Shown: in pieces, positions 30 through 41,989 of the stretch
How the letters are laid out: each line of letters starts with the position of its first letter
Position numbering within the stretch: position 1 is the stretch's first letter
DNA from: an uncultured Clostridia bacterium
GTDB taxonomy: Bacteria; Bacillota; Clostridia; Christensenellales; Aristaeellaceae
Reading direction: 5' to 3'
NCBI GenBank assembly: GCA_946407745.1
Contig: CAMJPQ010000018.1
Span: 1 to 52,753 of the forward strand
DNA length: 52,753 nucleotides
Position numbers and translations under genes: made by a program
Notes under the pieces: model-generated
Told to the model about the DNA's origin: nothing
The model's input: the letters and a program-made list of their open reading frames with translations, nothing else
The model's database searches: none

Positions 30-3000
30 ATGCCTGACGGCTCTGTTTTAATTGATACTAAGCTGGATCCATCCGGCCTAAAATCCGGCCTTGATGGGCT
101 ATCCGGTATTGTGTCCAGCTCCGGCCTTGCCAAAGTTGGGGCGGGCATCCTCAAGACTGTTACGGCGGTCTCCGGAAGCCTTGTAGCCATGGGCAAGTTT
201 GCCGTGGATGCCGGCATGAACTTTGACACGTCCATGTCGCAGGTCATGGCCACCATGGGCCTTACCGGGCAGGCGGCGGACGATGCTTACAAAAAACTGT
301 CCTCGGCTGCCAAACAGGCAGGCGAAACGACGCAGTTCTCAGCCAAAGAAGCGGCGGATGCCCTCAATTATCTGGCCTTGGCCGGGTATGACGCGGAAAC
401 GGCGGCAAACGTCCTGCCCTCGGTGCTGGACCTTGCTGCGGCCGGCGCAATGGATCTGGCCTACGCCTCCGACCTTGCTACCGACGCGATGGCGGCCCTC
501 GGCATTGAGGCCAACGGGGAAAACCTGCAGCATTTCGGCGACCAACTGGCAAAAACGGCCAGCCGGTCCAATACCTCTGTAGCCCAGCTCGGCGAAGCCA
601 TCCTCACGGTCGGCGGCACCGCAAAGCAGCTCGCAGGCGGAACGACCGAACTCAATACGGCCCTCGGCGTTCTTGCCAACCGCGGCATTAAGGGCGCGGA
701 GGGCGGCACCCACCTGCGCAACATCATCCTGTCCCTCACAGCGCCCACGGACAAAGCGGCGGAAGCAATTAAGCAGCTCGGCCTCAAGACCACCGACGCG
801 GCGGGCAACCTTCTTCCCTTGGATGAAATCATGGCGGATTTCAACAAGAAGACGAAGGGCATGTCCGAAACCGCAAAGATGGACTTGATGAACCGCATAT
901 TCAACAAGACCGATCTTGCGGCCGTTCAGGCTTTGTTAGCCGGTACCGGCGAAGAATGGGACAGCCTTGAAAGGGAAATCGAGGACTGCGAAGGGGCCAT
1001 GCACAACATGGCGGCCACGCAGCTTGATAACCTCGAGGGCGATATCACCATCATGAAGTCGGCCCTTGAGGGCCTTGGTATTGCGGCCTACGAAGGGGTC
1101 AAGGAACCGCTCAGGAAGATTGTCCAGCTCGGTACCGACCTCATCGGGCAGCTCACCAAAGCCATGAAGGAGGGCGGGTTTGCCGGGCTGGCTGGCGCTC
1201 TGGGCGACGTGTTTTCTCAGGTCGTTACCAAAGTAGCCGAATATCTGCCGAAGGTCGTGTCCATGGCAATGCAGGTCATTCAGGCCTTTGTCAAGGGCAT
1301 CTCTGAAAACGCGGGCGTTCTGGCCTCTGCGGCCTTGGAGGCTATGTCCTCCATCTCGGAAGGGGTCATGCTGGCCATTCCTGACCTGATGGAAGCGGCC
1401 GGCAGCATTGCTCTGGCTCTGGCTACCGGCATTGCGGACAGGGCGCCGGCCCTCATTGCGTCCTTTGCCACCATGGCGGAAACCTTGGCCGCAAAGGTAC
1501 AGGATTTCGTCCCGAAATTCATCCTTGCGGCGAAAATCCTCATCAATTCCATTGCCAAAAGCGTAAAGAAGAACCTGCCGGGCATCATCAAATCGCTCAC
1601 GAAGGTGCTGCTGCAGGGCCTCAAAGCCTTTATCTCCATCAAAACGGACTTGATGAAGCTCGGCTTCACCATCATTGAAGCCATCGGAGACGGCCTCATT
1701 GAAGCTATCCCGGATATCATCGAAGCCCTCCCGTCCATCATCAGCGGGATCGCCAATTTCTTTGCGACCAAATTCTCTACGATGGTGGAGATCGGGGCGA
1801 AGCTGTTCTCTGCCCTCATCGATAACCTGCCGCAGATTTTTAGCGGTGTCTGGAACGCAATCGCCGGGATAGACTGGGTAGGTCTCGGTAAAAAAATCCT
1901 CAAGGCCATCTGGGACGGCCTTTGCAAAATCGGTGACAGCATCCTCGGCCTCTTCGGCACCAGCATTGAAAAGATCACCGGCCTTAGCTGGGGCGACATC
2001 TATAAAGCCATCACGGGAGCCTTTACCAGCTTCGGTTCTTGGTTCCTCGGCCTCTTCACGGGTGGAAAATCGGATGCGGAAGGCGTTACGTGGGGTGACA
2101 TCTTCGCAAAGGTCAAGGAAGGGTTTGCCGGACTTGGCGCATGGTTCCTCGGCCTCTTTACCGGGGGCAAAAGCGAAGTTGAAAAGGTCTCTTGGAGTGA
2201 GGTCGGCACCAGCATTGAAACCGGCATTCAGACGGTCCTCGATGCGGGAGGCAAATTCCTCGAAGGGATCTTCACCGCAGGCAAAGCGCTCGTTGAGGCC
2301 ATTGACTGGGGAACCCTTGGCACGGTCATCGGCGATGGTGTCAACGGTGTTATAGACATAGCCGGTAAATTCCTCGAAGGATGCTTCACGGCCGGCAAGT
2401 CCCTCATCGAGGCAATCAACTGGGACAACATCGGCAAGGTCATCGGCGACGGGGTCAACAGCACCGTTGATCTGGCGGGCAAATTCCTTGAGGGATGCTT
2501 TACCGCAGGAAAGACCCTTGTGGAAGGGATCGACTGGGCCAATATCGGCAAGACCATTTCAACAGGGGTCAACGGCTATATCGACACGGCGGGCGCTTTC
2601 CTCAAAGGGTCCTTTGACGCGGCGAAGTCTGCCATTGAAAAAATCAAATGGTCGGAGATCGGCTCCACCATCGGCAACGCAGTCAATGAAACCATAGACA
2701 CGGCTGGAGAATTCCTCTCTGGCTGCTTTACGGCGGCCCATACCACCATTGCGGAAATCGACTGGGCGGGCCTTGGATCAACGGTTGCCTCTGTAGCCAA
2801 CGGCCTGATTACCCTCACCGGGGACACCCTCAGCGCGGCCTTTACGACCGCTCACGCCACCATTACCGCCATCAAGTGGGACGAGCTGGGCAAGACCATT
2901 GCGCAAGTCCCCAACGGTCTTATCACGCTTACAGGCGACGCACTCAGCGCCGCATTTACAACGGCGCACAGCACCATCACGGCCATCGAATGGGGCAAGC

Positions 3001-10002: not shown

Positions 10003-10959
10003 ATGCTTGACATCATCATTCCCCATTACACCGAAAACTGGCAGGTCGGAAAAAAGATGTTCTCCATGCTCGACCTGCAGCGCGGCATTGACTTTGCAAA
10101 GATCGGGGTCATCGTGGTCAATGACGGCCACGACAATGCGCTGGATCAGTCCTGCTTTGACGGGCATCCCTATCGGGTGGATCAAATCTCCATCCCCCAC
10201 GCCGGGGTATCGGCGGCACGCAACGCGGGCCTCCGGGCCTCGAAAGCACAGTGGGTCATGTTCTGCGATTTTGATGACATGTTCGCCCACGTCTACGCCC
10301 TGCGGGACATCCTCAACGCCCTCGAGGAAGCGGACGGCTATGACATGCTCTGGTCCGATCTCTATATCGAGAACGGCAAGACGGAAAAATGGCAGCTCAT
10401 CAAAAAAACGCAGGAGGACGCGGTTTTCACCCACGGAAAGCTCTTCCGCCGTCAATGCCTGCTGGATAATGACATCTGGTTCAACACGGACCTCGCATTC
10501 AACGAGGATTCCGAATTCAATGCCATTTTCCATACCAAAATCCATTTCAAGCGCACAGGAAAGCTCATCACGGACGTACCGCCCTATGTCTGGTGCTGGC
10601 GCAAGGACAGCACCACCAACCGGGAAGGGGCGGCCGTCTCGGCGGCATGGGGCCACTACAAGCGCAACGTATCCGTATGCAAGGCCTTTGAGGAACGCAT
10701 GCCGCTCGACCGGTACTGCGCCATGGTAACGCGCATGGTCTATGATACCTATTACACCCTCAACGGGAAGAACCTGCAGCCGGAACTCCTGCCCATGAAA
10801 GAGGATTTCCGCAACTGGTACCGGGATCATAAACGGTTCTACGGCCGCGTCGATCAAAAGGCGCTGGCGGCCATACAGGCAATCAGCCGGGCGGAATGCA
10901 TCCGGGAGGATCACGACGAAAGCACCGGCATTGATGAATGGCTCGCTCAGTTTGATTAA
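10003..10959 (+). CDS. Family 2 (GT-A fold) glycosyltransferase
   Basis: A 318-residue enzyme expected to move a sugar from a nucleotide-sugar donor to an acceptor. The GT2 signature is clear: an N-terminal Rossmann-like strand LDIIIPHYTEN, VVNDG at 38-42, SAARNAG at 70-76, and the metal-binding DFDD at 89-92. A second helical half includes FNEDSEFN near the expected catalytic region. It sits inside the tail operon, between the tail-tip genes and the DGR target. Its partner could be a phage tail protein, the host envelope (seroconversion) or a cell-wall polymer. Its late-operon position favours a virion or lysis-time role, but the acceptor cannot be read from the sequence. The stop codon TAA at 10957 is the first element of a short TAAGTT repeat. 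Confidence 0.85.
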   Translation: MLDIIIPHYTENWQVGKKMFSMLDLQRGIDFAKIGVIVVNDGHDNALDQSCFDGHPYRVDQISIPHAGVSAARNAGLRASKAQWVMFCDFDDMFAHVYALRDILNALEEADGYDMLWSDLYIENGKTEKWQLIKKTQEDAVFTHGKLFRRQCLLDNDIWFNTDLAFNEDSEFNAIFHTKIHFKRTGKLITDVPPYVWCWRKDSTTNREGAAVSAAWGHYKRNVSVCKAFEERMPLDRYCAMVTRMVYDTYYTLNGKNLQPELLPMKEDFRNWYRDHKRFYGRVDQKALAAIQAISRAECIREDHDESTGIDEWLAQFD

Positions 10960-10989: not shown

Positions 10990-11003
10990 GGAAGGGTGAT
11001 CCG

Positions 11004-11069
11004 ATGCCGTACTGGAATGAACATCCGCCCAACACCGCCCCGCCCCTGTCACACAACATCAAACCATAA
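11004..11069 (+). CDS. Possible 21-residue leader peptide before the DGR target
   Basis: ATG CCG TAC TGG AAT... encodes a 21-residue, proline-rich peptide, MPYWNEHPPNTAPPLSHNIK plus P, and ends in TAA 13 bases before the DGR target start. A good ribosome binding site (AAGGAAGGGTGAT) precedes it, and the target gene's own site (AAGGAGG) overlaps its stop. It may be a short tail peptide or may couple translation to the target gene. It is too short to be sure it is a gene. Confidence 0.45.
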   Translation: MPYWNEHPPNTAPPLSHNIKP

Positions 11070-11082
11070 GGAGGATAAACGC

Positions 11083-12924
11083 ATGGCTTTCAAAACCATG
11101 TACCCGGCGATCAATAACAGCCCGGTCACAACGCTGGCGGCGGCCATTACAACGGCCTCCACCACCATTGAGCTGGTAGACGCTTCCTGTCTGCCGGCAG
11201 CCCCAAACCTCTGCACCATCGGCACGGATGACACGGCAGAGCTGGTCCTTTATACGGGTATTTCCGGCAATTCCCTCACCGGCTGCACCCGCGGCTTTAA
11301 CAACACCACCATCAAAGGATGGGCGCTTGGCTCAAAGGTCTACCGTGCGCATACGGCCTATGACCATCAGACGTTCATTGATAACCTCAATGATCTGGCA
11401 GCCTCCCGTACAACGGATGAAGCGGCCATCCAGCAGAACGCCGACGATATCGACGATCTGGAAGAAGATCTTACCGATCTTTCCAATTCCGTTGACCAGC
11501 GCGTAGCTGACCTTCAGCAGCAGATCAACGCGGCCATGACCCGCGGCATCCACATCTACGGCGCGAAGTGGGATAAGACCAACGCGGCTTGCACCCGTGT
11601 CTTTGAGGCGGCTTCTATCGCCACGGATACCAGCAATTTCAAGCACGCAGGGTCCGTCAACGCCAATCTTTCCAACCCCTTTGACAACATCTACCCGTGG
11701 AACCTCTTCCGCCAGTGCAATGTCGACCTCGCCAAATATGCCGCCCTCAAGCCGGGTGACGATATTCGGCAGGCAGTCGTTGCGTGGTACGGGGAACCCG
11801 GTTTCAAGGATGACGGATCCAACGGCTTTGTAGGCGCGTACCGCCCTCAGTACTGGTACACCGCCTACGAGGACGGGGATGATGTCATCTTCGCGGTCGC
11901 CGACGGCAAGATGGACGGCTGGGCCGAATCTCCGGCCTATATCCGCGGCTATGGCTTTGCGGTCGATGCCGGGGACAGCAAGCTCACCTGCTACAACGGC
12001 CAGCCCCTTACCAACGTAGCCTTGTCCACCCTCCACACCAGAGCCAATAACAGCGGGTTCACGGTTGAGGATATTTACACTTACAGCGCGGAACTCACCG
12101 CCTTTGTAGTGGAATATGCCACCATGAACACGCAGGCGGCCATTGGATCCGGCTGCGATTCCTGCTACCGTTCCAGCAACGATGACAAGCCCCATGTTGC
12201 GGAAACCGGGGCCACCCGCGTTGTACTTCCGGCAGCCTGCGCGGCCTTTGCTCTGGAAGGGGTCACGCTGGACTTTGCGGCTGCCAAAGACGGTGTTGTC
12301 CTCGAAAACCGCCGCGCCTGCACCGGCTATGAAGCCTACTCGGACAACGACTATATTTCCGTCACGTTTGACGCTCCGCTGGACATCACAACGGATATGT
12401 TCGTTTCCTTCCACGGCATGGCCAACGGCGACGCCATCGGCAACGCCTCCGGCTTCATCGGCACGGCGGGCAAGCACAACGCGTTCTATCGCGGCTCTGT
12501 CCTCCACGCCAACCGCTGGCGCTATGTCCTCGGAGCTTACAGGCAAACCGGTACCGGCAAGGTCTGGATCTGCCCTGCGGATGATGATCCTGACGCTTAC
12601 AACGCCCTCAACACATCAAAGCACACGGACACCGGGGTGGCCCTGCCTGAATCCAAATCCGGGGCCTATATCGACGAACTGGCGGTGCTGGAAGGTCTCG
12701 GCGCGGTACCGGTCGCTCCGGCAGCCGGCGGAGGCGGGTCCAGCGCAAACCCGGTCGGCGACGGTCTGTACACGCCTGCAGCTTCCACCGGAAACACCGT
12801 CCTGCTCGCGGGCGGCAACGCCAGCTACGGGGCGTACGCCGGGGCTTTCTTCGGCTCCTGGCTCAGCGCTGCGTCGCTCTCGTACTGGCTCTGCGCGGTT
12901 CTGCCCGTCCTAAAAAACCCCTGA
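11083..12924 (+). CDS. DGR target protein: variable tail/receptor-binding protein
   Basis: A 613-residue protein whose last 40 residues are rewritten by the retroelement. The N-terminal 100 residues contain a strand-rich module also seen at the base of phage tail fibres. Residues 115-155 are a short coiled coil (DDIDDLEEDLTDLSNSVDQRV). Residues 160-560 are a large beta-rich region, probably a carbohydrate-binding or lectin-like module. A GGGGSS linker then leads to the C-terminal variable domain, whose VLLAGGN...GxxAGAF...N...AVLP pattern is that of the C-type lectin-like fold of other DGR variable proteins. The VR lies at residues 573-607. The start ATG at 11083 has AAGGAGG at 11068-11074. 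It is probably the host-recognition protein. Confidence 0.92.
   Translation: MAFKTMYPAINNSPVTTLAAAITTASTTIELVDASCLPAAPNLCTIGTDDTAELVLYTGISGNSLTGCTRGFNNTTIKGWALGSKVYRAHTAYDHQTFIDNLNDLAASRTTDEAAIQQNADDIDDLEEDLTDLSNSVDQRVADLQQQINAAMTRGIHIYGAKWDKTNAACTRVFEAASIATDTSNFKHAGSVNANLSNPFDNIYPWNLFRQCNVDLAKYAALKPGDDIRQAVVAWYGEPGFKDDGSNGFVGAYRPQYWYTAYEDGDDVIFAVADGKMDGWAESPAYIRGYGFAVDAGDSKLTCYNGQPLTNVALSTLHTRANNSGFTVEDIYTYSAELTAFVVEYATMNTQAAIGSGCDSCYRSSNDDKPHVAETGATRVVLPAACAAFALEGVTLDFAAAKDGVVLENRRACTGYEAYSDNDYISVTFDAPLDITTDMFVSFHGMANGDAIGNASGFIGTAGKHNAFYRGSVLHANRWRYVLGAYRQTGTGKVWICPADDDPDAYNALNTSKHTDTGVALPESKSGAYIDELAVLEGLGAVPVAPAAGGGGSSANPVGDGLYTPAASTGNTVLLAGGNASYGAYAGAFFGSWLSAASLSYWLCAVLPVLKNP
12798..12905 (+). 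repeat. DGR variable repeat (VR)
   Basis: 108 bases match the template repeat 250 bases downstream except at 15 positions, and every one of the 15 is an A in the template (now G, C or T). Eleven codons of the target protein are altered, eight AAC and three TAC-type or similar positions being the hotspots. Changed bases run from 12824 to 12893. The unaltered 3' end CGCGGTTCTGCC is the likely initiation site for mutagenic homing. Confidence 0.97.
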
Positions 12925-13047: not shown

Positions 13048-13155
13048 CGTCCTGCTCGCGGGCGGCAACGCCAACAACGGGGCGAACGCCGGGGCTTTCT
13101 ACGGCAACTGGAACAACGCTGCGTCGAACTCGAACTGGAACTACGCGGTTCTGCC
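13048..13155 (+). repeat. DGR template repeat (TR)
   Basis: Non-coding copy of the VR, with 22 adenines of which 15 differ in the VR and none of the other bases do. It is built from AAC codons (read in the VR frame it gives GGNANNGANAGAF and similar). Its position between target gene and reverse transcriptase is the usual one. The flanking RNA up to 13326 has no gene and should form part of the template RNA. Confidence 0.96.
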
Positions 13156-13326
13156 ACTCCAAAGTAAACGTCCGCCGGAAGGCGGGCGGCGTACTGACGC
13201 ATGGGGAAACCTATGCGAAGCAGTATAACAGCCTCAGCCCTTGCTGAAAATTACGCAATCAGGAAACGGGTTAGTAGGTCTGCCGGAAGGCATGCTCGAC
13301 CGCCCGTATGCTAAGGAGGTTTTGAA
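13156..13326 (+). ncRNA. Probable 3' part of the DGR template RNA
   Basis: This 171-base stretch between TR and reverse transcriptase holds no credible gene. A GC hairpin CCGCC(GGAA)GGCGG lies at 13172-13185. The sequence ends with TAAGGAGGTTTTGAA, the ribosome binding site of the reverse transcriptase. In other DGRs this flank binds the RT and primes cDNA synthesis, so I assign it by analogy. Confidence 0.6.
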
Positions 13327-14376
13327 ATGCCGAAGAGGATCGGCTTTCTATACGAAAAGGTCTTAACCCTCCAGAACTGCACGGCAGCGGTTCTGGAGGG
13401 GACGGCCAACCTCAAAAAGACCGCAAAAATACGGAGGATCCGCAAGAACCCTGAAATCTGGGGACAGAAAATTCTTGACATCCTCACGGCTGGCTGGACC
13501 CCTGAGCCAACCAGAGAAAAAATCATCAACGAAGGTACAGGTCACAAGGTCAGGCACTTGCAGATACCCACAACAACAGATCATCTCATCCATGTAGCCA
13601 TCATGCGGCCCATTCTCCCGGAGCTGGAAAAGCGCTATGACTTCTATTCCTGCGGTTCCGTTCCAGGAAGAGGGCAAAAGCGGGTCAATGACAGCCTCAA
13701 AACGTGGATGGGAGCGGCAAAGCCGCCCAAATATGGGGCGGAAGCAGATGTTCATCACGCCTACGAATCCACACAGGCCCGTTTTGTCATGTATGCCCTC
13801 CGCCGCTTCATCAAGGATGAAAAATACCTTGCTTGGCACCGCCAGATATTGAACCAGATGGGCGGTCATCTGGCCATAGGGTTTCAGCCCTCACATTGGT
13901 ATTTCAATCTGGTCATGACCCGCGTGGACACAGCGGTTCGATCCTCCTGCCCGGGTATCCGTCTGGTCCGCTACATGGACAATTATGTCTTTGCTGCCAG
14001 CAGGAAAAGGACGCTGCACAAGGCCATCCGAATAGTCACGGATAAATGCGCCAAAATGGGCATGAGCATCAATCACGACTGGCAGGTCTTCCGAACGGAC
14101 GCAAGGGCCATCGTCATGCTCTCTTACCGCTATTTCCGGGGCTATACTCTGCTCCGCAAGGATACCATGTACAGCATAGCGGCCAGCATCCGCACAACGG
14201 CGAAGAACATGAACGCCCATCTATGCCGGGCGGCCATGTCGCAGATCGGCATACTGCGCCACTGCAACAGCTACCATTTCCGCAGGAAACACGTTTACCC
14301 CATTCTATCTATCAAACGGTCAAAGGAGTTGATTTCCCGTGCTGACAAGAAACGTATACTTCTCACAGGAACCTGA
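13327..14376 (+). CDS. DGR reverse transcriptase
   Basis: A 349-residue RT that copies the TR RNA with adenine-specific errors into cDNA for the VR. Visible motifs are SCGSVPGRGQKR (109-119, motif 2 of DGR RTs), EADVHHAY with catalytic D141 (motif A), IGFQPSHWYFN (184-194, the position of the DGR-type GxxxSQ motif) and LVRYMDNYVF (motif C). Two positions are unusual: SH replaces SQ, and YMDN (216-219) replaces YMDD, so the second motif C aspartate is an asparagine. The remainder is intact, with no stop or frameshift, and the VR has plainly been mutagenised, so the enzyme was active. No Avd gene is seen beside it. It overlaps the next gene by 38 bp. Confidence 0.95.
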   Translation: MPKRIGFLYEKVLTLQNCTAAVLEGTANLKKTAKIRRIRKNPEIWGQKILDILTAGWTPEPTREKIINEGTGHKVRHLQIPTTTDHLIHVAIMRPILPELEKRYDFYSCGSVPGRGQKRVNDSLKTWMGAAKPPKYGAEADVHHAYESTQARFVMYALRRFIKDEKYLAWHRQILNQMGGHLAIGFQPSHWYFNLVMTRVDTAVRSSCPGIRLVRYMDNYVFAASRKRTLHKAIRIVTDKCAKMGMSINHDWQVFRTDARAIVMLSYRYFRGYTLLRKDTMYSIAASIRTTAKNMNAHLCRAAMSQIGILRHCNSYHFRRKHVYPILSIKRSKELISRADKKRILLTGT

Positions 14377-22793: not shown

Positions 22794-24509
22794 TCATTCA
22801 TACAGGAATTTGATCACAATCCCGTTTTTGAGGTCGATTTCCATGATTTTGCCCTGTAAAATTACAATTTTTTTGCATAAGGAATTTATGAATAATTTCA
22901 GGGTCCTTTTATCCAGCACGCGAATTACTTTCTCGTAATCCACGTATCTTTTTGACAGCAGCTCCTCCGTAATCACCAGATACGAAGCCTGCTCCATGAA
23001 GGTCTCGTCGTCCGGGGACCCGTCATCATTTTTGGAGACATCCAGCTCGGAAAGCCGGCTGTTTACTTTTGACAGCTTTTCGGCCAATTGTAAACACTCA
23101 GACAGGTACTCAGATTCCGGCATGGAATCATCGGAATACAGGTATAGCGATTTTAAGCGATTCTGGGCGCGCTCTAAGCGCCTCTTTTCTTCCTCGAGTA
23201 TTTCCCTCTCGTTCGGCGTCTCGTTGCTCACAGGGGCCGCAGGGCGAAAATACGGGCCGTCTCCGAAGCGGTCGGCGCGAAACAGGCAATGGATGTCCTC
23301 GAGGCTGGATCGATCTATCCTCACGCCCTCAAAGTACACACCCCGCAGCAGCTTCTTTTCCAGCATCTCGGCGCTGGTGGTCCGGCCGAAATTCCTCTGC
23401 GCCCGGATATAATTCGAAATGAAGTTCAGCATAAACGGCCCGACGGTCACGTCAGACACATATTTATTATCACAATCCTTGAACCGCCGGTGTCTGGAGC
23501 AAAGGTAGATCGAAGGCCGCCATGCGGATTTTGCGCGGGGCCGGTCGATGGTGGATTGGAACTGGCTGCCGCAGGACCCGCAGATCAAAAGCCCGGCGAA
23601 AACGTGGATGTTCTTCCGCTCATAGGTCTGTGTTGAAGAAATCCCACGCTCATTGGCTGCCAGCTTTGCGGCGATAGCCTTTTGCCGTTCCTCGGTAACG
23701 ATGGCCGGGTGATGGTCCGGGACCAATACCCATTCCTCCGGCCGCTTTTTGGTATAGGTCTTCTTTTTCTCGGACATGTAGTTATAGCGAAGCGTCCCGG
23801 AATAAAACGGGGAAGTCAGGATTGCCCGGACCGTGGTCGGGTTCCATGGGATGCCGCTCCGGTTCTTGATCCCCTTTTCGTTCAGGTAGGTAGCGGTTTT
23901 CAGCAGGGAAGGAACCTTATCATACTGGTCATAGATCTGCAGCACGACGGCGGCCTCGGCCTCGTTGACGGTAAATATGTTCGTACCCCTTGGGTGGTCA
24001 TATCCGAACGGTGCCTTTCCCCCATTCCATTGACCGCCCTGCGCTCTGGAAATCATGGTGGCGGTCACACGCTCGGAGGTCATATTCCGTTCAAGCTCAG
24101 CAAACACAAGGATGATTTTCAGCATGGCCTCGCCTATGGCGGTGGAAGTATCGAACTGCTCATTCTTGGAAATGAACACCACTCCGAGGTCCTTTAATTC
24201 AGCATACATCCCGGCGAAGTCCAGAAGGTTGCGGCTGATCCGGTCCAGCTTCCAGACAACGATGTGTGTGAACTCCCCGTCACGAACGCGGGACATCATC
24301 TGCTGATAGCTGGGCCGCTCGGTATTCTTGGCAGAAAATCCGGCGTCCTCGAAGATCTCATAGTCTGTAATACCGAGGGCATACTGCACGTACTTCGGAA
24401 GTTCCTCCCGCTGCATGGGCAGGCTGTCTCCATCATCGGCCTGCATCTTTGTGGACACCCGGATATACAGCGCGGCCTTTTTAGAGGCAAGGTCTATTTT
24501 CTTTGCCAT
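22794..24509 (-). CDS. int: Large serine recombinase (integrase)
   Basis: 571 residues. Residues 12-150 form the resolvase catalytic domain with nucleophile S19 in YIRVSTKMQ and the DRISRN motif near 92. A Recombinase domain follows (about 170-280, KAPFGYDHPRG and onward), then a zinc beta ribbon (CGSCGSQF ... CSRHRRFKDCDN, about 305-355). A coiled coil (about 395-475) fits the synapsis-controlling element. It would integrate and, with a directionality factor, excise the phage. Nothing resembling a known directionality factor is obvious. The ATG at 24509 has only a weak AAGG site. Confidence 0.97.
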   Translation of the reverse strand: MAKKIDLASKKAALYIRVSTKMQADDGDSLPMQREELPKYVQYALGITDYEIFEDAGFSAKNTERPSYQQMMSRVRDGEFTHIVVWKLDRISRNLLDFAGMYAELKDLGVVFISKNEQFDTSTAIGEAMLKIILVFAELERNMTSERVTATMISRAQGGQWNGGKAPFGYDHPRGTNIFTVNEAEAAVVLQIYDQYDKVPSLLKTATYLNEKGIKNRSGIPWNPTTVRAILTSPFYSGTLRYNYMSEKKKTYTKKRPEEWVLVPDHHPAIVTEERQKAIAAKLAANERGISSTQTYERKNIHVFAGLLICGSCGSQFQSTIDRPRAKSAWRPSIYLCSRHRRFKDCDNKYVSDVTVGPFMLNFISNYIRAQRNFGRTTSAEMLEKKLLRGVYFEGVRIDRSSLEDIHCLFRADRFGDGPYFRPAAPVSNETPNEREILEEEKRRLERAQNRLKSLYLYSDDSMPESEYLSECLQLAEKLSKVNSRLSELDVSKNDDGSPDDETFMEQASYLVITEELLSKRYVDYEKVIRVLDKRTLKLFINSLCKKIVILQGKIMEIDLKNGIVIKFLYE

Positions 24510-32887: not shown

Positions 32888-33205
32888 ATGTATCAGGAAA
32901 GCTATGACACCCTGCAGCAGGTAGCGGGCGGCCTCAAGGCTCTTGCCATTGTTTTTCAGGAATTGGAAGAGGCGGGCAAAGCCCTCTCTCATCTCGCAGA
33001 TCTGGTGGAACAGGTCATCGAGGCCGAAACGGAGAACGAGGACACGGATGAAAACGGCGGGGACGGAGAATGCGATGGGGCCTGCTCCTGCTGCCCTGAT
33101 CCATGCCCCGTAGTTCATTATGAGGATTCTCTGCATGCCACTATCGAAGTCGGCCAGCACCGCATTGAAATCCGGGATGATCTCGGAAAGGGATCGAACG
33201 AGTAA
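32888..33205 (+). CDS. Cysteine-rich protein, unknown function
   Basis: 105 residues. Helical first half (LQQVAGGLKALAIVFQELEEAG), an acidic linker, then CDGACSCCPDPC (about 65-76) with five Cys in 12 residues, then a strand-rich end. The cluster may bind a metal. The site AAAGGAGACAATC fixes the ATG at 32888. I know no family for it. Confidence 0.7.
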   Translation: MYQESYDTLQQVAGGLKALAIVFQELEEAGKALSHLADLVEQVIEAETENEDTDENGGDGECDGACSCCPDPCPVVHYEDSLHATIEVGQHRIEIRDDLGKGSNE

Positions 33206-33213
33206 TAAAGGCC

Positions 33214-33243
33214 GGCAGGCCGGGTATTTTCTTCCGGCCTGCC
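33214..33243 (+). promoter_or_regulatory. Hairpin before thyX
   Basis: GGCAGGCCGG at 33214-33223 pairs perfectly with CCGGCCTGCC at 33234-33243; loop GTATTTTCTT. No T-run after it, so it is unlikely to be a strong terminator. It lies in the 63-bp gap before thyX. Confidence 0.5.
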
Positions 33244-33268: not shown

Positions 33269-33919
33269 ATGAATGTAACTTTGCTCAGGGTCACGCCGTT
33301 CGGTGACGATCTGGCCGGGGAAGCGGCGGCCATCTGCACCCGCTCAGACAACCCGGATCGGGCGCGGGGCCATGCCATCATGTCGGGCCATCAGTCCATC
33401 TTGGAGCATATTGTATTCACCTTCAAAATTGAGGAAATCTCCCGCGTCACGCTGGCCCAGCTCACCCGCCACCGGCTGGCAAGCTATGAGGTGGAAAGCC
33501 AGCGCTACACGGACAACGGGCAATGCTCGGTCATCGTCCCGAAGAGCATTTCCGATGATCCGGTACTCTATCAGGAATATTTGCAGCTCGTCCAGAGGAC
33601 CCGGGATTTCTATGACAAGGCCGTCAATATCATGGGAATACCTAAAGAGGATGCCCGCTATGCCTCTTTGCAGGGGACGGCAACCCGCCTTATTCTCACC
33701 ATGAACGCAAGGGAACTCCGGCATTTCTTCTCTCTTCGCTGCTGCAACCGGGCGCAGTGGGAAATCCGGGAAATGGCGGATAAAATGCTGGACATCTGCA
33801 AGCAGGAATGCCCGGCGGCCTTTGAAGACGCAGGCCCCGGATGCGTTCGCCATCAATGCCCGGAATTCAGGCCATGCGGGCATGAACGGACGCACGACTG
33901 GGACGTGGCCGAAGCATGA
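33269..33919 (+). CDS. thyX: Flavin-dependent thymidylate synthase
   Basis: 216 residues. The ThyX motif RHRLASYEVESQR (67-79) is present, as are SGHQSILEH (39-47) and the FAD/dUMP-binding LRHFFSLRCCNRAQWEIR region (about 150-167). It makes dTMP from dUMP with methylene-tetrahydrofolate and NADPH. The C-terminus has four Cys (CKQECP, CVRHQCPEF), possibly metal-binding. Helps the phage meet its thymidine need. Start after GGGAGGAAAAACC; overlaps the next gene by 4 bp. Confidence 0.96.
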   Translation: MNVTLLRVTPFGDDLAGEAAAICTRSDNPDRARGHAIMSGHQSILEHIVFTFKIEEISRVTLAQLTRHRLASYEVESQRYTDNGQCSVIVPKSISDDPVLYQEYLQLVQRTRDFYDKAVNIMGIPKEDARYASLQGTATRLILTMNARELRHFFSLRCCNRAQWEIREMADKMLDICKQECPAAFEDAGPGCVRHQCPEFRPCGHERTHDWDVAEA

Positions 33920-34691: not shown

Positions 34692-34961
34692 ATGGAACAG
34701 GAAAAGCAAAAAACCTTCACCCCGGACCACGTATTGAAAACCATCCCGGAATATTTTGAAGCCGGGTTCCGCGGGGAAAAGATGTTCGAGCTTCGCCGGG
34801 ATGACCGGGATTTCAAGGTCGGGGACTATATCCTGCTCAAGGAATGGGACGGCGAACAGTTCACGGGCCGCATGATGGCAAAGAAGATCACCTATATTCT
34901 CAGGGATTGTGAGCAGTACGGCCTCAAGGACGGATTCTGCATCCTGTCCCTCACTTGGTAG
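34692..34961 (+). CDS. DUF3850 protein (ASCH/PUA-like)
   Basis: 89 residues with the DUF3850 pattern: H-V-LKTIPEYFEAGFRGEKMFELRRDDRDFKVGDYILLKEW. These are small RNA- or nucleotide-binding-like proteins of unknown role in phages. Site CAGGAGGAAACA, ATG at 34692. In its operon it neighbours other small proteins. Confidence 0.88.
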   Translation: MEQEKQKTFTPDHVLKTIPEYFEAGFRGEKMFELRRDDRDFKVGDYILLKEWDGEQFTGRMMAKKITYILRDCEQYGLKDGFCILSLTW

Positions 34962-36340: not shown

Positions 36341-36727
36341 ATGATAAAACAGTACGTGGACAGCATCAGGCGGGAAAGCCAGTACAAAAGGGTATTCCGC
36401 AAATGGCTAAAGGGGGAAATCCCGGACAATCAGCTCAGGGCGGACCAGCGGGCCTATATTCAGAAAACCATGAAGGCCAGAATGAAGCGGATCAAAAGGA
36501 GATTCCGCAGGCAGGTGGAGCTGCACATGTTCCTCCGCAATATCACGGTCAAACCAATAGGCAGGCTGCTCAGGCCGCTGCCGGTCAACTGGCATGAGGA
36601 CTTTGCGGACGGGATAAGCTACCCTCACTGCCCCGCCTGCGATGAGCTGGCCTATCAGAAGGATCATTGCGTATTTTGCGGCAGGAGGTTCAGCCAATGG
36701 GATACAATTACAGGAAGCGGCAAATAG
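36341..36727 (+). CDS. Basic protein with zinc ribbon
   Basis: 128 residues. The first 85 are strongly basic and helical (KARMKRIKRRFRRQVELHMFLRN), the end has a zinc ribbon (CPACDELAYQKDHCVFCGRRF, about 97-117). Likely nucleic-acid-binding. It overlaps the MazF-like gene by 31 bp. No known family beyond the zinc ribbon. Confidence 0.7.
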   Translation: MIKQYVDSIRRESQYKRVFRKWLKGEIPDNQLRADQRAYIQKTMKARMKRIKRRFRRQVELHMFLRNITVKPIGRLLRPLPVNWHEDFADGISYPHCPACDELAYQKDHCVFCGRRFSQWDTITGSGK

Positions 36728-37059
36728 AAAAGATTCAGCCACGATGGGGAGACATCTACATTGCGGACTTGGGTGACAGGAAAATCCGGCCGGTCATCAT
36801 CGTGCAGAACAACTCAGGGAATCATTTTTCGGAACACATCATCGTGGTACCGCTCACCAGCCGCAAGAAGAATGATCAGCCAACGCATGTAGTCATCCCC
36901 ACGAGGTGCGGGATCCGCCAGACATCAACGGCCATCTGCGAAACCATCCTCACCATAGACAAGGATGATCTGCTCCGCTGGGTAGGAACGGTCACGGGGT
37001 TTCCGCAGGAAAAGAAGCTCCGCAGGGCGATAGAAATTTCCCTCAATCTTATCAAATAA
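36697..37059 (+). CDS. MazF/PemK-like toxin family protein
   Basis: 120 residues from the ATG at 36697 (GCAGGAGGTTCAGCC). The PemK/MazF fold is visible: GDIYIADLGDRKIRPVIIVQNNSGNHFSEHIIVVPLTSR (18-56) and a later QPTHVVIPT. MazF enzymes cut single-stranded RNA, but no antitoxin gene lies next to it. In Bacillota phages such lone copies often sit just before the late regulator. It may be tuned or inactive. Confidence 0.88.
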   Translation: MGYNYRKRQIEKIQPRWGDIYIADLGDRKIRPVIIVQNNSGNHFSEHIIVVPLTSRKKNDQPTHVVIPTRCGIRQTSTAICETILTIDKDDLLRWVGTVTGFPQEKKLRRAIEISLNLIK

Positions 37060-37064
37060 AAAAA

Positions 37065-37092
37065 GGGAACCGGAGCGGCAACTCTGGTTCCC
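37065..37092. promoter_or_regulatory. Hairpin behind the MazF-like gene
   Basis: GGGAACCGGAG at 37065-37075 pairs with CTCTGGTTCCC at 37082-37092 (one G-U) around CGGCAA. An A-run lies on its left, so it is shaped like a minus-strand terminator, with no T-run on the right. Confidence 0.5.
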
Positions 37093-37163
37093 CTGACCGC
37101 AGCCTCCACGCCGCAGCCAATCGCAGGACATATTATAACATACTGGCATGGAGGTTTGCAAGC

Positions 37164-37661
37164 ATGACACCGCAGCAGGTGGATAAGATGCTCTCGGATT
37201 ACAATCGTTGCCGATCACGGGCAACCCATATCAAGAACCAGCTTGCCATTATGGAAAGGCAGCTCCAGCAGGAAAGGGACCATGCCATGGAAGGAGAAGC
37301 CATCCATGCGCAGGCCTATGATCCCACGCCGCACGGAAACATGCCCGGCAATCCGGTGGAAAGCCTTGTCCTTCGCTATATGTCCGGGTATGAACCAAAA
37401 TATATCAAAGACCTGCAGCAGGACGTGGACAAGGTCCGGGATGAACTCTATGAGGCGGAAATGGTCATCCGGTTTGTGGACGGCTGGCTCATCTGCCTGA
37501 CGGACCGGGAACGCTTCGTCATCCTCCATCATGTCATCAGCTCGGAAACGTGGACGGAGGTTCTGGACCTCTATGAAAAACAGTTTGGCCAGTTCGGAAA
37601 GGAAGGGCTGCGCAAAATCAAAAAGCGGGCGCTCAATAAAATCTATGAGGCGGCGGAATAA
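37164..37661 (+). CDS. ArpU/RinA-like late transcription regulator
   Basis: 165 residues. The N-terminal helical part is followed by a C-terminal sigma-like HTH region (TDRERFVILHHVISSETWTEVLDLYEKQFGQFGKEGLRKIKKRALNKIYEAAE). The family turns on late packaging and structural genes in Gram-positive phages. ATG 37164 after GGAGG. Directly downstream lie iterons and a promoter that it may use. Confidence 0.83.
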   Translation: MTPQQVDKMLSDYNRCRSRATHIKNQLAIMERQLQQERDHAMEGEAIHAQAYDPTPHGNMPGNPVESLVLRYMSGYEPKYIKDLQQDVDKVRDELYEAEMVIRFVDGWLICLTDRERFVILHHVISSETWTEVLDLYEKQFGQFGKEGLRKIKKRALNKIYEAAE

Positions 37662-37708
37662 AGCTGCCTCTTTTTATTTGCACGCAGGGCCGCACGTGCA
37701 AGCCGATC

Positions 37709-37722
37709 TTACACGCGTGTAA
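37709..37722. promoter_or_regulatory. 14-bp perfect palindrome
   Basis: TTACACGCGTGTAA. It lies 28 bases after CGCACGTGCA (also palindromic-like) and 15 bases before the 11-bp iterons. Likely a dimer binding site in the late control region. Confidence 0.6.
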
Positions 37723-37736
37723 AGAATTACGACGGA

Positions 37737-37780
37737 TTTTACCAGCTTTTTACCAGCTTTTTACCATGTTTGTACCTTTG
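37737..37780 (+). repeat. Four 11-bp iterons (TTTTACCAGCT)
   Basis: TTTTACCAGCT twice, TTTTACCATGT, then TTGTACCTTTG, at 37737, 37748, 37759 and 37770. The step of 11 bases puts every copy on one face of the helix. They stop exactly at the -35 box of the next promoter. Confidence 0.88.
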
Positions 37781-37805
37781 CGCAACCCGGAAAAGGTGGT
37801 ATTAT
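37778..37805 (+). promoter_or_regulatory. Late promoter downstream of the iterons
   Basis: TTGCGC at 37778-37783, 16-bp spacer, TATTAT at 37800-37805. The weak -35 next to iterons suggests activator dependence, fitting an ArpU-like regulator. Confidence 0.6.
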
Positions 37806-37884
37806 GTCATCGTCGCAAGGCATCGGACGCGGGCACCCGCTCCGGTGCCTTTTCCATTGCGAAAAACAAAAGGAGGAAAACATC

Positions 37885-38223
37885 ATGGAAGAAGTTGGCG
37901 TTTTGAGGGCAATGATCTCTCAGCCTATGGCGGGCAAAACCAAAGAGGAAATCGAACAGGTCCGGGAACGGGCCATCGACACCCTCAAGGAAAAAGGGTA
38001 TGACGTGGTCAACACCCTTTTCACGGACGAATGGTACAGCCCTGAAAAAATGCGGGAACGCGGGGTCTTGGTCATTCCTCTTTGTTTCCTTGCGAAGAGC
38101 CTTGAAAACATGACCCTCTGCAATGCAGCCTACTTCTGCAAAGGGTGGGAAAAGGCACGCGGCTGCCGCATCGAGCATGAGGCTGCCAAACAGTACGGCC
38201 TCGAAATCATCTACGAAGAATAA
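37885..38223 (+). CDS. DUF4406 / nucleoside 2-deoxyribosyltransferase-like protein
   Basis: 112 residues. DUF4406 features are SQPMAGKTKEEIEQVRERAI and CNAAYFCKGWEKARGCRIEHEAAKQYGLEIIYEE, with glycine/glutamate positions like the 2-deoxyribosyltransferase superfamily. The substrate is unknown. AAAGGAGGAAAACATC precedes the ATG at 37885. First gene behind the promoter at 37778. Confidence 0.88.
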   Translation: MEEVGVLRAMISQPMAGKTKEEIEQVRERAIDTLKEKGYDVVNTLFTDEWYSPEKMRERGVLVIPLCFLAKSLENMTLCNAAYFCKGWEKARGCRIEHEAAKQYGLEIIYEE

Positions 38224-38250
38224 CAAAGTGGGGGCGGCGCCTAAGCATGG

Positions 38251-38282
38251 GCGCGGGATTTCGTTGTTCGCGCTGCTTTTTT
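38251..38282 (+). terminator. Possible terminator after the DUF4406 gene
   Basis: GCGCG at 38251-38255 pairs with CGCGC at 38269-38273, extended by AGC/GCT, and a T-run follows (38277-38282). The stem is short, so strength is uncertain. Confidence 0.45.
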
Positions 38283-38353
38283 ATGCAGCTTCTTCACAGC
38301 GCGGCACCTCCGACCTTGGCGGGGAGGTCGGAAAAACCATCGGAGGGATCACC

Positions 38354-38905
38354 ATGGAAAATATCTTCCGCGAAGCGGAATACAGGGTCGTGAAGCTTTC
38401 GGACATGCATCCGGCGGACTACAATCCCCGGTTTGATCTGCAGCCGGGGGATATCAATTATGACAACCTCAAAGCCTCCATCATGCAGAACGGCCTTATC
38501 CAGCCCCTTGTCTGGAACCCGGTCACGGGTAACATTGTCGGCGGAAACCAGCGCTACAAGGTCCTGCAGGAACTCGGTGTCACGCAGGTGGTATGCGCGG
38601 TCATCGAATACCAAACCATAGAGGATGAAATGGCGGCCTGCATAGCCCTCAACAAGGCGCAGGGACGCTGGGAAAACGCCCTGCTCATCCAGCTTTTCGA
38701 CAAGCTCGACAAGGCCACGCTGGATTATGGGGCCATGGGGTTTGACCGGGAAGAAGTGGAGCATCTTTATTCCGGGCTGGACGATCTGGAAGACGGGGAT
38801 ATTTTTGACTGGTCACAGGAACCGGAAAAGAAACCGCCGATGATCACCTGCCCGCATTGCGGAAAGAAATTCGAGGAGCGTGAGAACCGTGTCACAGATC
38901 AATGA
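38354..38905 (+). CDS. ParB-N domain protein
   Basis: 183 residues. ParB/Spo0J-like nuclease domain at about 10-130 (MHPADYNPRFDL, GLIQPLVWNPVTGNIVGGNQRYKVLQELG), followed by ACIALNKAQG..., an acidic linker and a C-terminal CPHCG zinc knuckle. Such phage proteins often pair with DNA methylases or act on DNA. GGAGGGATCACC fixes the start at 38354. The next gene begins inside its end and is a second, fused copy. Confidence 0.86.
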   Translation: MENIFREAEYRVVKLSDMHPADYNPRFDLQPGDINYDNLKASIMQNGLIQPLVWNPVTGNIVGGNQRYKVLQELGVTQVVCAVIEYQTIEDEMAACIALNKAQGRWENALLIQLFDKLDKATLDYGAMGFDREEVEHLYSGLDDLEDGDIFDWSQEPEKKPPMITCPHCGKKFEERENRVTDQ

Positions 38906-39731
38906 ACAGATTTTGCAGGACATTCTCACGGCGGCCACCTACAAACGCCTTGACCTCGACATCATCCAGCCGGCCCCATATAATCCGCGGGCGGACCTCA
39001 CGCCAGATGACCCGGACTACCAGCGCATAAAACAGAGCATCATAGATCACGGCCTCCTGCAGCCCATCGTCTACAACGAGCAGACAGGAAACGCGGTCGG
39101 AGGGAACCAGAGGCTCAAGATTCTTCGGGAAATGGGGATCAAGGAAGCCACCATCTTTGCCAATATTTTTGAGGCGAAGAATATTGAACTGTTCGGCCTC
39201 AATCTGGCAGCCGGTCACGTCATGTTCGGAAGCGTATTCCTCGCGACCGACATCCTCAGCGAATATTACGGGAAAAAGGCCGCGAAGGCCGGGGTCTGGA
39301 TGGGACTCTGCGCGGACGTGGCCCTCATAGCATGCACGCAGCTATGCCGCCTCTACATCCCCTCGGCGGCTGATTCCGCAGATCCGGCCATACAGAGATT
39401 GTTCACGATGAGCCTGCGGATCACGGCGGCAAGCGCGGTCATGTTCTTTATATCCAACTGGTGTGATGTTCTTCTCTTTGCGAAAATCCGGGAACTCACC
39501 CACGGACGGTATTTGTGGCTCCGCAACAACGTGGCGACCATCCTCTGCAACTGCCTTGAAAACTTCCTGTTCTACTTCCTTGCTTTCTATCCTGATTTTG
39601 GGATGGGACAGATATTCAGCATGGGACTGGCGACCTGCCTGCTGGAAGTCATCATCGGCATTTGCGATACCCCGTTCCTCTATCTGGCGAAAAGATGCAG
39701 GCACGGGGATGAACTGGAGGCTGCAAGGTGA
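38889..39731 (+). CDS. ParB-N domain fused to VUT/YhhQ-type membrane transporter
   Basis: 280 residues from the GTG at 38889 (GAGGAG ends ten bases before); a GTG at 38880 is also in frame but has a spacing of one base. Residues 1-88 are a ParB-N domain (YNPRADL, GLLQPIVYNEQTGNAVGGNQRLKILREMG), cut off before its last strands. Residues 89-270 match the VUT family of queuosine-precursor transporters (YhhQ type): FLATDILSEYYGKKAAK, SNWCDVLLFAKIRELTHGRYLWLRNN and four to five membrane segments. The first membrane helix of the transporter looks shortened by the junction. No frameshift or stop lies at the join (about base 39153). Confidence 0.85.
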   Translation: MSQINEQILQDILTAATYKRLDLDIIQPAPYNPRADLTPDDPDYQRIKQSIIDHGLLQPIVYNEQTGNAVGGNQRLKILREMGIKEATIFANIFEAKNIELFGLNLAAGHVMFGSVFLATDILSEYYGKKAAKAGVWMGLCADVALIACTQLCRLYIPSAADSADPAIQRLFTMSLRITAASAVMFFISNWCDVLLFAKIRELTHGRYLWLRNNVATILCNCLENFLFYFLAFYPDFGMGQIFSMGLATCLLEVIIGICDTPFLYLAKRCRHGDELEAAR

Positions 39732-39946
39732 CATATGAGCTGTTCGGCATTCTTGGAACGGTGCTCATTCTGATTGGCTTTCTTTCTGACAGCGAAAAGA
39801 GGATCCGCATTTTTGATATGGCAGGCTCCGCCCTCTTTGTCCTATACGGAGTTTTGATCGGGGCGTACAGCAATATCCTGCTCAACGGGATACTCATCAT
39901 CGTCCATATTTTCAAGCTGCGGAAAATCGGGAAAAAGGCCGGATAA
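39728..39946 (+). CDS. YgjV-like small membrane protein
   Basis: 72 residues from a GTG at 39728. Three hydrophobic segments (GILGTVLILIGFLS, IFDMAGSALFVLYGVLIGA, ILLNGILIIVHIFKL) resemble the YgjV family of bacterial inner membrane proteins. GGAGG at 39717-39721 precedes it, and it overlaps the transporter stop by 4 bp, so the two membrane proteins form one cassette. Function unknown. Confidence 0.72.
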   Translation: MTYELFGILGTVLILIGFLSDSEKRIRIFDMAGSALFVLYGVLIGAYSNILLNGILIIVHIFKLRKIGKKAG

Positions 39947-39984
39947 TCAGATTTTGCGGAGCGATCAGAAAACGAGGTGATTCA

Positions 39985-40782
39985 ATGCCGCAACAGACCA
40001 CCGAAAAGCGGGAGACTGCGAAACGGTTATATCTGGACAGCGGCGGAAGAATCCTACTTAAAGACATCGCTTCACAGCTCGAAACCCCGCCGTCAACCGT
40101 TTCGTCATGGAAGCGGTCGGACAAGTGGGACAGCTACCTCAAACGCAAACCCCGCAAAAACGCCCATGTTCTGAAGGGCAACAAAAGGTCGGCAAAGCCT
40201 CACCCTTCACAGCTTGACAATAAAAACCCTTTGCGTCATGGCCGCTATGAAAAGCTCAAGTATGAAACCATGACCGACGAGGAAAAGAGCCTCATTGACG
40301 AGGTACGGGCCTCAACGGACCAAATCAGGATGCAGGTGGATCTCATTGCAGAACTGGAAGTCCGGGAACGCCGCATGTACGCTCGCATTGAGGCTCTTCG
40401 CCTTGTCGCAGAAAAGGACCCGGAGCGCCTTGTCACCAACTTTGCCACGCTGGAAACGGAAACGCCCACGGAAACCGGAAAGAAAAAGGGAAAGCCGGGA
40501 ACCATGCGGGTCAGCAAGGCGAAGCGTCACGCGACCGACCTTATTCAGGAAATCGAAAACGCCCTGACGGCAGTCCAGAAGCAGAAACAGCAGGCAATAC
40601 TCACCCTGCACAAACTCACGGAAGACAAGATCATCCGGGAACGGGAACAGCGCCGCCTTGAGCTGGAAGAAAGGCGGGTAGCCCTCTTGGAACGCCGCCT
40701 TGCCCTCTCTGACCCGGACATTGAAACGGATGCCATGAAGGAAGCAAAGCGGCTTTTGGAGGGGATAGAAAGTGCCTTTTAG
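39985..40782 (+). CDS. terS: Terminase small subunit
   Basis: 265 residues. N-terminal HTH (LYLDSGGRILLKDIASQLETPPSTVSSWKRSDKWDSYL, about 16-52), as in PBSX-type small terminases, then a long helical region with charged coiled-coil (about 185-235) for oligomerisation. It recognises the packaging site and partners the large subunit encoded next, overlapping by 11 bp. ATG 39985 after GAGGTGATTCA. Confidence 0.88.
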   Translation: MPQQTTEKRETAKRLYLDSGGRILLKDIASQLETPPSTVSSWKRSDKWDSYLKRKPRKNAHVLKGNKRSAKPHPSQLDNKNPLRHGRYEKLKYETMTDEEKSLIDEVRASTDQIRMQVDLIAELEVRERRMYARIEALRLVAEKDPERLVTNFATLETETPTETGKKKGKPGTMRVSKAKRHATDLIQEIENALTAVQKQKQQAILTLHKLTEDKIIREREQRRLELEERRVALLERRLALSDPDIETDAMKEAKRLLEGIESAF

Positions 40783-41989
40783 TCCAAAGCAGCAAGAGTA
40801 CTTCAACAAGGCGGCCCACCGCTGGAACGTCAAAACAGGCGCTACGCGATCCGGCAAAACCTTCATGGACTATTTCGTCATCCCGAAAAGAATCCTCAAC
40901 ACACAGGGGCACGGGCTGATTGTCATCCTCGGTCATACGCAGCAGACCCTACAAAGGAACATCATAGACCCCATGCAGCGGATCTGGGGAACCTCTCTGG
41001 TCGGCAATGTTTCCAACCGCACCGGGGCGGCGACCATATTCGGGAAGAAATGCTATGTCCTCGGCGCGGACAACAAGGCCAGAATCAACCCCATTCGAGG
41101 CTCGTCTATTGAGTACTGCTACGGGGATGAGGTGGCCACGTGGGAAGAAGGGGTCTTCCAGATGCTCAAGTCCCGTCTGGACCGCCCCAACAGCACCTTT
41201 GACGGAACCTGCAACCCGGAAACCCCGATGCACTGGTTCAAGACCTTTCTGGACAGCGACGCGGACATTTATCAGCAATCCTATACCATCTATGACAATC
41301 CGTTCCTTGACCCGGAAATCGTCCGCAATCTGGAAAAGGAATATGCCGGGACGGTCTTTTTTCAGCGGTTCATTCTGGGAGAATGGACGCTGGCGGAGGG
41401 GCTGATCTACAAGCATTTCTCGGAAGAAAAGAACCTCTACGACAAACCGCTCTCCGATGAGATCCGAAGGCGCTCCATCCCCTATGTCGCCATTGACTAC
41501 GGATCCGCCAACCCGACAGCCTTTCTCTATATCCTCTATGATCCGCAGGACCGGGTCATCTACGTGGACAGGGAATACTATTACGACGGCCGGCACGAAG
41601 TAGTCCAGAAAACGGATGCGGACTATGCTCAGGACCTCTTGGCTTTTTCGCAGCCGGAACAAACCGTGGCGGTCATCATAGACCCCTCGGCGCTTTCTTT
41701 CCGCATTGCGGCCCGCAGGCTCGGCTATCGCGTCAAGGAAGCGGACAACGAAGTCCTCAACGGAATCCGGGATGTGTCCACCCTCATGTCCGTTGGAAAG
41801 CTCAAGGTCAATGCAGATTGCCAAAACCTGCTCAAGGAAATCCGCACCTATGCGTGGGACGAAAAGGCGGCGCAGCAGCTCGGCATTGACAAGCCTATCA
41901 AACAGAACGACCACGCTGTAGACGCATTGAGATATTTTGTCAATACCATCGTCAGAATGCGCCAAATGCTCACAGGGAGGAACGAATAA
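40772..41989 (+). CDS. terL: Terminase large subunit (PBSX type)
   Basis: 405 residues, GTG start at 40772. The packaging ATPase has Walker A GATRSGKT (23-30) and the Walker B region YCYGDE (115-120). The nuclease domain has D242 in VAIDYGSANPTAF, D304 in VIIDPSA and D384 in NDHAVDALRYF, the expected metal-binding set. It drives DNA into the prohead and cuts it. It is directly before portal, the usual order. Confidence 0.97.
   Translation: MPFSPKQQEYFNKAAHRWNVKTGATRSGKTFMDYFVIPKRILNTQGHGLIVILGHTQQTLQRNIIDPMQRIWGTSLVGNVSNRTGAATIFGKKCYVLGADNKARINPIRGSSIEYCYGDEVATWEEGVFQMLKSRLDRPNSTFDGTCNPETPMHWFKTFLDSDADIYQQSYTIYDNPFLDPEIVRNLEKEYAGTVFFQRFILGEWTLAEGLIYKHFSEEKNLYDKPLSDEIRRRSIPYVAIDYGSANPTAFLYILYDPQDRVIYVDREYYYDGRHEVVQKTDADYAQDLLAFSQPEQTVAVIIDPSALSFRIAARRLGYRVKEADNEVLNGIRDVSTLMSVGKLKVNADCQNLLKEIRTYAWDEKAAQQLGIDKPIKQNDHAVDALRYFVNTIVRMRQMLTGRNE

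Follow-up and report, generated by a model that had tools for sequence, protein, structure and literature searches.

An in-frame ParB–transporter fusion in a Clostridia phage region as a probable deletion scar within a predicted 7-deazaguanine DNA-modification operon

A 52,753-nt contig from an uncultured Clostridia bacterium of the Aristaeellaceae (CAMJPQ010000018.1, analysed over its whole length and referred to here as the window) carries a phage open reading frame (ORF) that joins a ParB-like domain to a queuosine-precursor-type transporter. Sequence comparisons indicate that this fused ORF is most likely a deletion scar connecting two neighbouring genes, parB2 and an importer gene, and not a new protein architecture. 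Very probably, it arose when about 1.63 kb was deleted, at a short microhomology, within a phage 7-deazaguanine DNA-modification operon, and we infer that the deletion was a real event in the phage.

The evidence comes from the source assembly (GCA_946407745.1; 3.77 Mb in 194 contigs, 96% complete with 3% contamination). Searching it with the fusion protein returned, besides the window, two separate matches about 1.6 kb apart, one to the transporter part (89%) and one to the ParB part (82%), both on a 12,656-bp contig, C76, that is a second version of the window phage region. C76 encodes, in order, parB1, parB2 (190 amino acids), a 292-amino-acid DpdA-like protein, an 88-amino-acid DUF6275 protein, a 229-amino-acid transporter, a YgjV-like protein, terS and terL. 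By blastn, window positions 36503-39124 align to the left of the C76 dpdA with 81.7% nucleotide identity and positions 39147-41960 to the right of it with 88.4% identity. The C76 sequence between the two join points, 1,631 bp in length, is missing from the window. Microhomology at the join amounts to 4-6 bp, with CCAC (four bases) common to both places within C76. Relative to C76, the window has lost the 3′ half of parB2, dpdA, the DUF6275 gene, and hydrophobic segment 1 and half of segment 2 of the transporter. The parts of the fused ORF are as follows.

38880 to 39146, + strand: parB2 remnant, N-terminal 89 codons (82% identity to C76 parB2 over query residues 2-92)
39147 to 39152, + strand: deletion junction, GCCACC, placed by ungapped base-by-base comparison of both sides with C76
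39147 to 39731, + strand: transporter remnant, a QPTR/YhhQ-like body (89% identity to the C76 transporter over query residues 87-283; TIGR00697, 148.1 bits)

A first-pass annotation of this DNA had remarked that no DpdA was obvious, which holds for the window; an assembly-wide search with the C76 DpdA found one match, in C76. The same annotation had proposed, as one of two alternatives, that the junction was left by acquisition of a foreign cassette, which the comparison contradicts, as parB2 and the transporter already stand in one operon in relatives and material was lost, not gained. It had also envisaged that all relatives might have separate genes, with a frameshift here. The genes are separate in the relatives seen, but the cause is the deletion of about 1.6 kb; a frameshift or sequencing error at the join was rejected because the window lacks about 1.63 kb of sequence homologous to C76. 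The open frame across the join would then be a chance outcome, expected in one of three deletions.

The fused ORF spans 38880-39731 (+ strand) and encodes 283 amino acids from a GTG start in a single frame without an internal stop, so that the in-frame combination of ParB and transporter first described is indeed present in the assembly. We prefer the GTG at 38880 to position 38889 as the probable start, the same GTG being offered by the parB2 frame of C76. The start of the parB2 remnant overlaps the end of parB1, and about 100 C-terminal codons have been lost. Pfam ParB_N matches fusion residues 22-92 (E 5.9e-6; 26.7 bits, barely exceeding the cut-off of 26.3) and places the N-terminal part in the ParB/Srx superfamily with profile positions 4-75 of 95 covered, and Pfam Vut_1 matches residues 111-270 (E 1.4e-38). 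The NCBIfam model of the queuosine precursor transporter, TIGR00697, matches residues 90-272 with 148.1 bits against a cut-off of 50.95, with the match beginning at profile position 13 in the fusion versus position 2 in the intact C76 transporter. Transporter sequence is kept from about residue 36 of the intact C76 protein. Of the Kyte-Doolittle peaks at residues 6-24 and 27-45, the first two of the C76 transporter and neither of them seen as such in the fusion, the first is wholly lost and only about half of the second remains; the fusion does not carry the complete set of membrane segments of the intact protein. The two halves had been described as slightly cut, which is fitting for the ParB_N domain (profile 4-75 in the fusion versus 4-79 of 95 in the intact protein) but not for the whole proteins, with about 100 C-terminal residues of the 190-amino-acid ParB2 and one and a half transporter peaks lost.

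We next weighed whether the junction could have been made by the assembler. If reads of related phage strains, one contributing parB2 and the other the transporter, had been joined, no such molecule would exist. We regard this as unlikely, even though the assembly is a draft of 194 contigs that holds two versions of the region, the junction has no second copy in the collections searched, and the ends of C76 match the window exactly over 55 bp, as a graph bubble would give:

33189 to 33243, no strand: 55-bp exact match to one end of C76 (left end, presumed assembly-graph bubble; shared 55-mers)
41906 to 41960, no strand: 55-bp exact match to the other end of C76 (right end, presumed bubble; shared 55-mers)

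These end matches fit a branch of a k=55 de Bruijn graph that leaves and rejoins, and C76 therefore looks like another form of this region and not like a phage located elsewhere. Shared 55-mers form blocks at 33189-33243, 34773-34904, 37796-37855, 39727-40046 and 41906-41960, and the junction falls between the third and fourth of these, inside a stretch (37856-39726) without 55-mers common to C76. None of the 61 55-mers around the junction occurs in C76, each is found a single time in the window, and both sides have diverged from C76 at synonymous sites (dS 1.0 for the parB2 part and 0.77 for the transporter part), which makes a misjoin through k-mers shared between the two versions unlikely. 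In addition, the sequence common to the two sides at the join is only about 4-6 bp long, far under 55, both differ from C76 and so were not made of C76 reads, and the window is without any N. The fourth block lies to the right of the junction:

39727 to 40046, no strand: 320-bp block identical to C76 on a background of about 88% identity (shared 55-mers, alignment)

This block covers the YgjV-like ORF and the start of terS, with the rest of the arm about 12% divergent, and its identity suggests either a recent exchange or a collapsed assembly path.

The fusion was not found a second time in the collections searched, several of which may omit close neighbours of the window. Searching viral contigs with the fusion protein gave 12 stretches matching a pattern, representing 10 loci. 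In all nine that hold the 5′ end of the transporter gene, it is a separate whole gene with dpdA directly upstream (truncated at the end of the contig in L010 and L015, and interrupted by a change of frame in L017); the remaining locus, L018, starts inside the transporter gene. A YgjV-like ORF follows the transporter in 10 of 10. Degenerate junction patterns had no match in viral contigs or in genome contigs, a protein scan of genome contigs returned 53 stretches with no relative among them, and no record of a phage collection covers 80% of the fusion query. Among the matches listed for 150 relative genomes, its own included, only that of the window covers both halves. These results speak against the new two-part protein that had been suggested as one reading of the ORF. 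Separately, the split dpdA of L017 (2009-2952, the same place as L066) may be another case of a lost copy, or may reflect an error in sequencing.

The identity of the lost enzyme was examined in C76. Its DpdA-like protein belongs by sequence to phrog_887, queuine tRNA-ribosyltransferase (E 3.4e-20), and it has a predicted TGT fold. Residues D79 (in MDSG) and D230 (in ADST), presumably the TGT substrate-binding and nucleophile aspartates, are invariant in 29 viral DpdA sequences and present in C76. A single-sequence structure prediction of the DpdA of L013 gave no usable model (predicted local distance difference test score, pLDDT, of 33). A PADLOC scan of nine proteins returned one weak DpdA match, for the viral DpdA of L080 (E 0.0043); the ParB proteins (E up to 1) had no Dpd match and hit the MTase_II model only, the presence of a DpdB model in the library not being established.

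To describe the operon from which the stretch was lost, we collected 38 viral dpdA loci by scanning with a DpdA alignment and found their neighbours with profiles from C76 and viral proteins. A same-strand ParB-like ORF lies upstream of dpdA in 34 of the 38 loci and in all 33 with at least 600 nt of upstream DNA; the four loci without one (L062, L064, L076 and L084) each have less than 300 nt upstream. This ORF overlaps dpdA by 4 nt in 12 of 34 cases, the largest gap being about 330 nt. Ten upstream ParB-like ORFs compared with Pfam all matched ParB_N at E up to 0.005, six of them over the gathering cut-off. As an internal control, the DNA downstream of dpdA was compared with the ParB profile, and none of the 38 loci had a ParB ORF there. 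The linkage alone proves little, because ParB-like genes are common in phages without DpdA: among the 40 matches listed, from 151 records, at least 30 were on the ParB side only, and a separate search gave two records with a DpdA match. A terminase-based control set for ParB frequency came to three loci and was not used.

Downstream of dpdA, the 37 loci with at least 1,000 nt of sequence had an importer only (23), at least two of queD, queE and folE only (13) or both (1, L078), and none had neither. In all 24 loci having an importer (24 of the 38 in the set), its start is no more than 350 nt from the end of dpdA, and the first biosynthesis gene lies within 480 nt in 13 of 13. In three examples, queD, queE and folE stand in the importer's place after dpdA (L080 4867-6905, L062 1096-3039 and L089 4881-7209, the last with queC too). 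A Pfam Vut_1 match to an importer was present in 26 of the 38 records, two of them weak (L063 and L088). Both were counted as making the base despite the weak match, which in L088, a locus labelled 'both' in the tree, lies directly downstream of dpdA; the number of loci with both kinds may thus be two or three instead of one. QueC was found in one of the 38 records, which has no Vut_1 match. Taken together, the neighbourhoods suggest that DpdA operons either import the base or make it.

Several observations weigh against the favoured explanation of a deletion within a modification operon. The transporter part shows no excess of amino-acid changes in the window, with four on the window branch, five on the C76 branch and ten ambiguous. 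For the C76 DpdA, neither Pfam nor NCBIfam gave a match over cut-off, PADLOC gave no match and no PDB chain was matched by sequence, and a profile comparison of our alignment A1 with the host TGT gave no match. Many of the 38 records are fragments, so the absence of QueC or of an importer from them is weak. The 37 loci are also not independent: in a DpdA tree of 38 rows (L066 and L085 left out, C76 and Roos, a Faecalibacterium phage, added), the import and make kinds cluster, with the import label needing three changes, at least two of them forced by starred branches, and the pattern appears to be largely shared by descent. Given how few independent changes the tree shows, we do not count a Fisher test of importer versus biosynthesis genes (two-sided p 4e-9) as evidence. 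Finally, a chimeric molecule or a gap-closing error may possibly have made the junction.

The state of the transporter remnant bears on what became of the product. At 151 columns the five outgroups compared are all identical; the window has changes at 2 of these columns and C76 at 3. The lack of any sign of decay implies that the loss was recent or that the product is still selected, and we favour a probable recent loss because DpdA is missing along with the transporter start and half of ParB2. A working fusion, with the ParB-like domain tethered to the membrane beside the transporter body and given a new job, would account for the open frame, the retained overlap with parB1 and the nearly untouched conserved columns. 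It is nevertheless very unlikely: hydrophobic segment 1 and half of segment 2 are gone, as is half of ParB2, the window lacks the partner enzyme DpdA, the fusion is absent from every relative seen, and an in-frame join arises by chance in a third of deletions. Phage modification genes often move as cassettes, and this mobility could favour the reverse direction, in which the fused form is ancestral and dpdA was inserted between the halves in C76. We give that history almost no credence, as C76 has complete ends of both genes, which an insertion between the halves could not have supplied, and the start of its transporter agrees with the complete transporters in all nine viral loci holding that end.

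The intact operon of C76 is the main object of interest. The missing stretch, its content, the conservation of the operon and the predicted TGT fold can all be read from sequence. The link to 7-deazaguanine DNA modification raised by the first-pass annotation is supported, as related operons hold a DpdA-like enzyme between the two genes. The host assembly has one TGT match and no QueC match, and no TIGR00697 transporter was found in it beyond the two phage versions, other uptake systems not having been searched for; an importer would suit a phage that needs a 7-deazaguanine there. The intact operon consists of one or more ParB-like genes, dpdA, DUF6275 (in C76), the QPTR importer and the YgjV-like gene. 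In the proposed mechanism, the importer would bring a 7-deazaguanine base (preQ0, preQ1 or queuine) into a host without a QueC match, and DpdA, a putative TGT-fold transglycosylase, would swap guanine in phage DNA for the imported base. The ParB-like protein may assist DpdA in the manner of DpdB of bacterial Dpd systems, a step that rests on the literature on DpdB and on ORF1 of mycobacteriophage CRB2, and modification would protect the DNA from nucleases of the host. In the window version, which has lost dpdA, no modification would be expected, and its ParB–transporter chimera is most likely inactive. The ParB role could be more general than DpdA, because ParB genes adjoin other modification genes and occur in phages without DpdA. 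Tentatively, and with more doubt than confidence, ParB-like protein, DpdA and QPTR may form one import-and-insert module for phages of QueC-less hosts, using a scavenged base and an obligate DpdB-like ParB partner, with modified and natural unmodified versions of one phage coexisting in this population and the latter still making the chimera.

Known systems resemble this operon in several respects. As in the phage DpdA systems of Enterobacteria phage 9g and others (PMC6884629), the C76 operon contains a DpdA/TGT-fold enzyme; it differs in having an importer where other loci of our set have queD, queE or folE, and the window differs in having lost dpdA. Salmonella phage 7-11 has DpdA alone (PMC8651126). 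In bacterial Dpd systems, DpdB is a ParB-like ATPase that works with DpdA and is dispensable in certain clusters (PMC12839542), and here too a ParB-superfamily gene adjoins a DpdA-like gene. The same is seen in CRB2, in which the ParB-superfamily ORF1 next to the DpdA-like ORF2 was suggested to be a dpdB homologue and ORFs 3-5 resemble queC, queD and queE (PMC6392294), whereas C76-type operons have the importer there. ParB-domain genes also occur near other phage DNA-modification genes (PMC12783734).

For the importer, a 2019 survey records YhhQ homologues in some phages, with no correlation to phage group, and considers uptake of an exogenous precursor possible (PMC6884629); in our set, by comparison, 24 of 38 loci have the importer no further than 350 nt from dpdA. 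A survey of archaeal viruses lists YhhQ in HCTV-1 and HCTV-16 (PMC8651126), and a phage paper of 2025 restates that preQ0 can be brought in from outside by YhhQ (PMC11945000). Measured against the YhhQ/QPTR family, the fusion keeps a transporter body over the curated TIGR00697 cut-off, but with hydrophobic segment 1 and half of segment 2 replaced by half a ParB-like protein. The single annotated phage record with a full-length DpdA match, Roos (PP479939), has ParB-like, small, DpdA-like (44% identity) and QPTR-like (27%) ORFs in a row, all annotated as hypothetical; unlike the window it has no fusion, and no YgjV-like match was found in a record that ends 12 nt past the QPTR-like gene. No report of the ParB–DpdA–importer arrangement was found in the literature searched, whose coverage mostly excluded subscription journals.

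The genes adjoining the fused ORF are as follows.

38123 to 38905, + strand: parB1, an intact ParB_N protein (Pfam ParB_N E 3.8e-8; phrog_620 E 1.9e-37)
39728 to 39946, + strand: YgjV-like small membrane protein (PF10688 E 1.5e-7, profile 91-158 of 159, the C-terminal half of Imp-YgjV)
39985 to 40782, + strand: terminase small subunit (PF10668 E 4.1e-13; phrog_1889 E 1.9e-43)
40772 to 41989, + strand: terminase large subunit (phrog_2 E 4e-41)

Homology of parB1 to its C76 counterpart begins at about 38345, with a ratio of non-synonymous to synonymous divergence (dN/dS) of 0.06; the protein has a CPHC...C-type end, for which zinc-ribbon matches are weak and under cut-off. Over its whole length (1-52753), the contig has the appearance of a phage genome that is nearly whole and was opened at the tape-measure gene (30-5039). 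No repeat was found at the contig ends at the lengths tried, and 22 larger ORFs scanned were phage-type or unmatched. An integrase at 22794-24509 (− strand) also matches a DNA-invertase family. A diversity-generating retroelement is present, with a 116-nt variable repeat (12798-12913) at the end of a tail-protein ORF (10996-12924), the template repeat 250 nt on (13048-13163), 17 of 18 mismatches at template adenines, and a reverse transcriptase ORF at 13327-14376. Other ORFs are of thymidylate-synthase type (33269-33919; phrog_85, E 1.5e-44) and DUF4406/nucleoside-deoxyribosyltransferase-like (37804-38223; phrog_355, E 2.7e-20), and one among the tail genes (10003-10959) has a weak GtrB-like/glycosyltransferase match (phrog_22739, E 4.3e-6).

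These findings remove a supposed new protein architecture and put a testable phage base-modification operon in its place. The fusion would be an ordinary event, its value lying in the intact operon as a variant of known phage DNA modification, and the C76-type operon appears to modify phage DNA with a scavenged base instead of one of its own synthesis. The tight linkage of ParB and DpdA in all 33 assessable loci yields a concrete hypothesis of a ParB-like partner for phage DpdA, and a natural pair with and without dpdA, two versions of a single phage region within the same assembly, could reveal the value of the modification.
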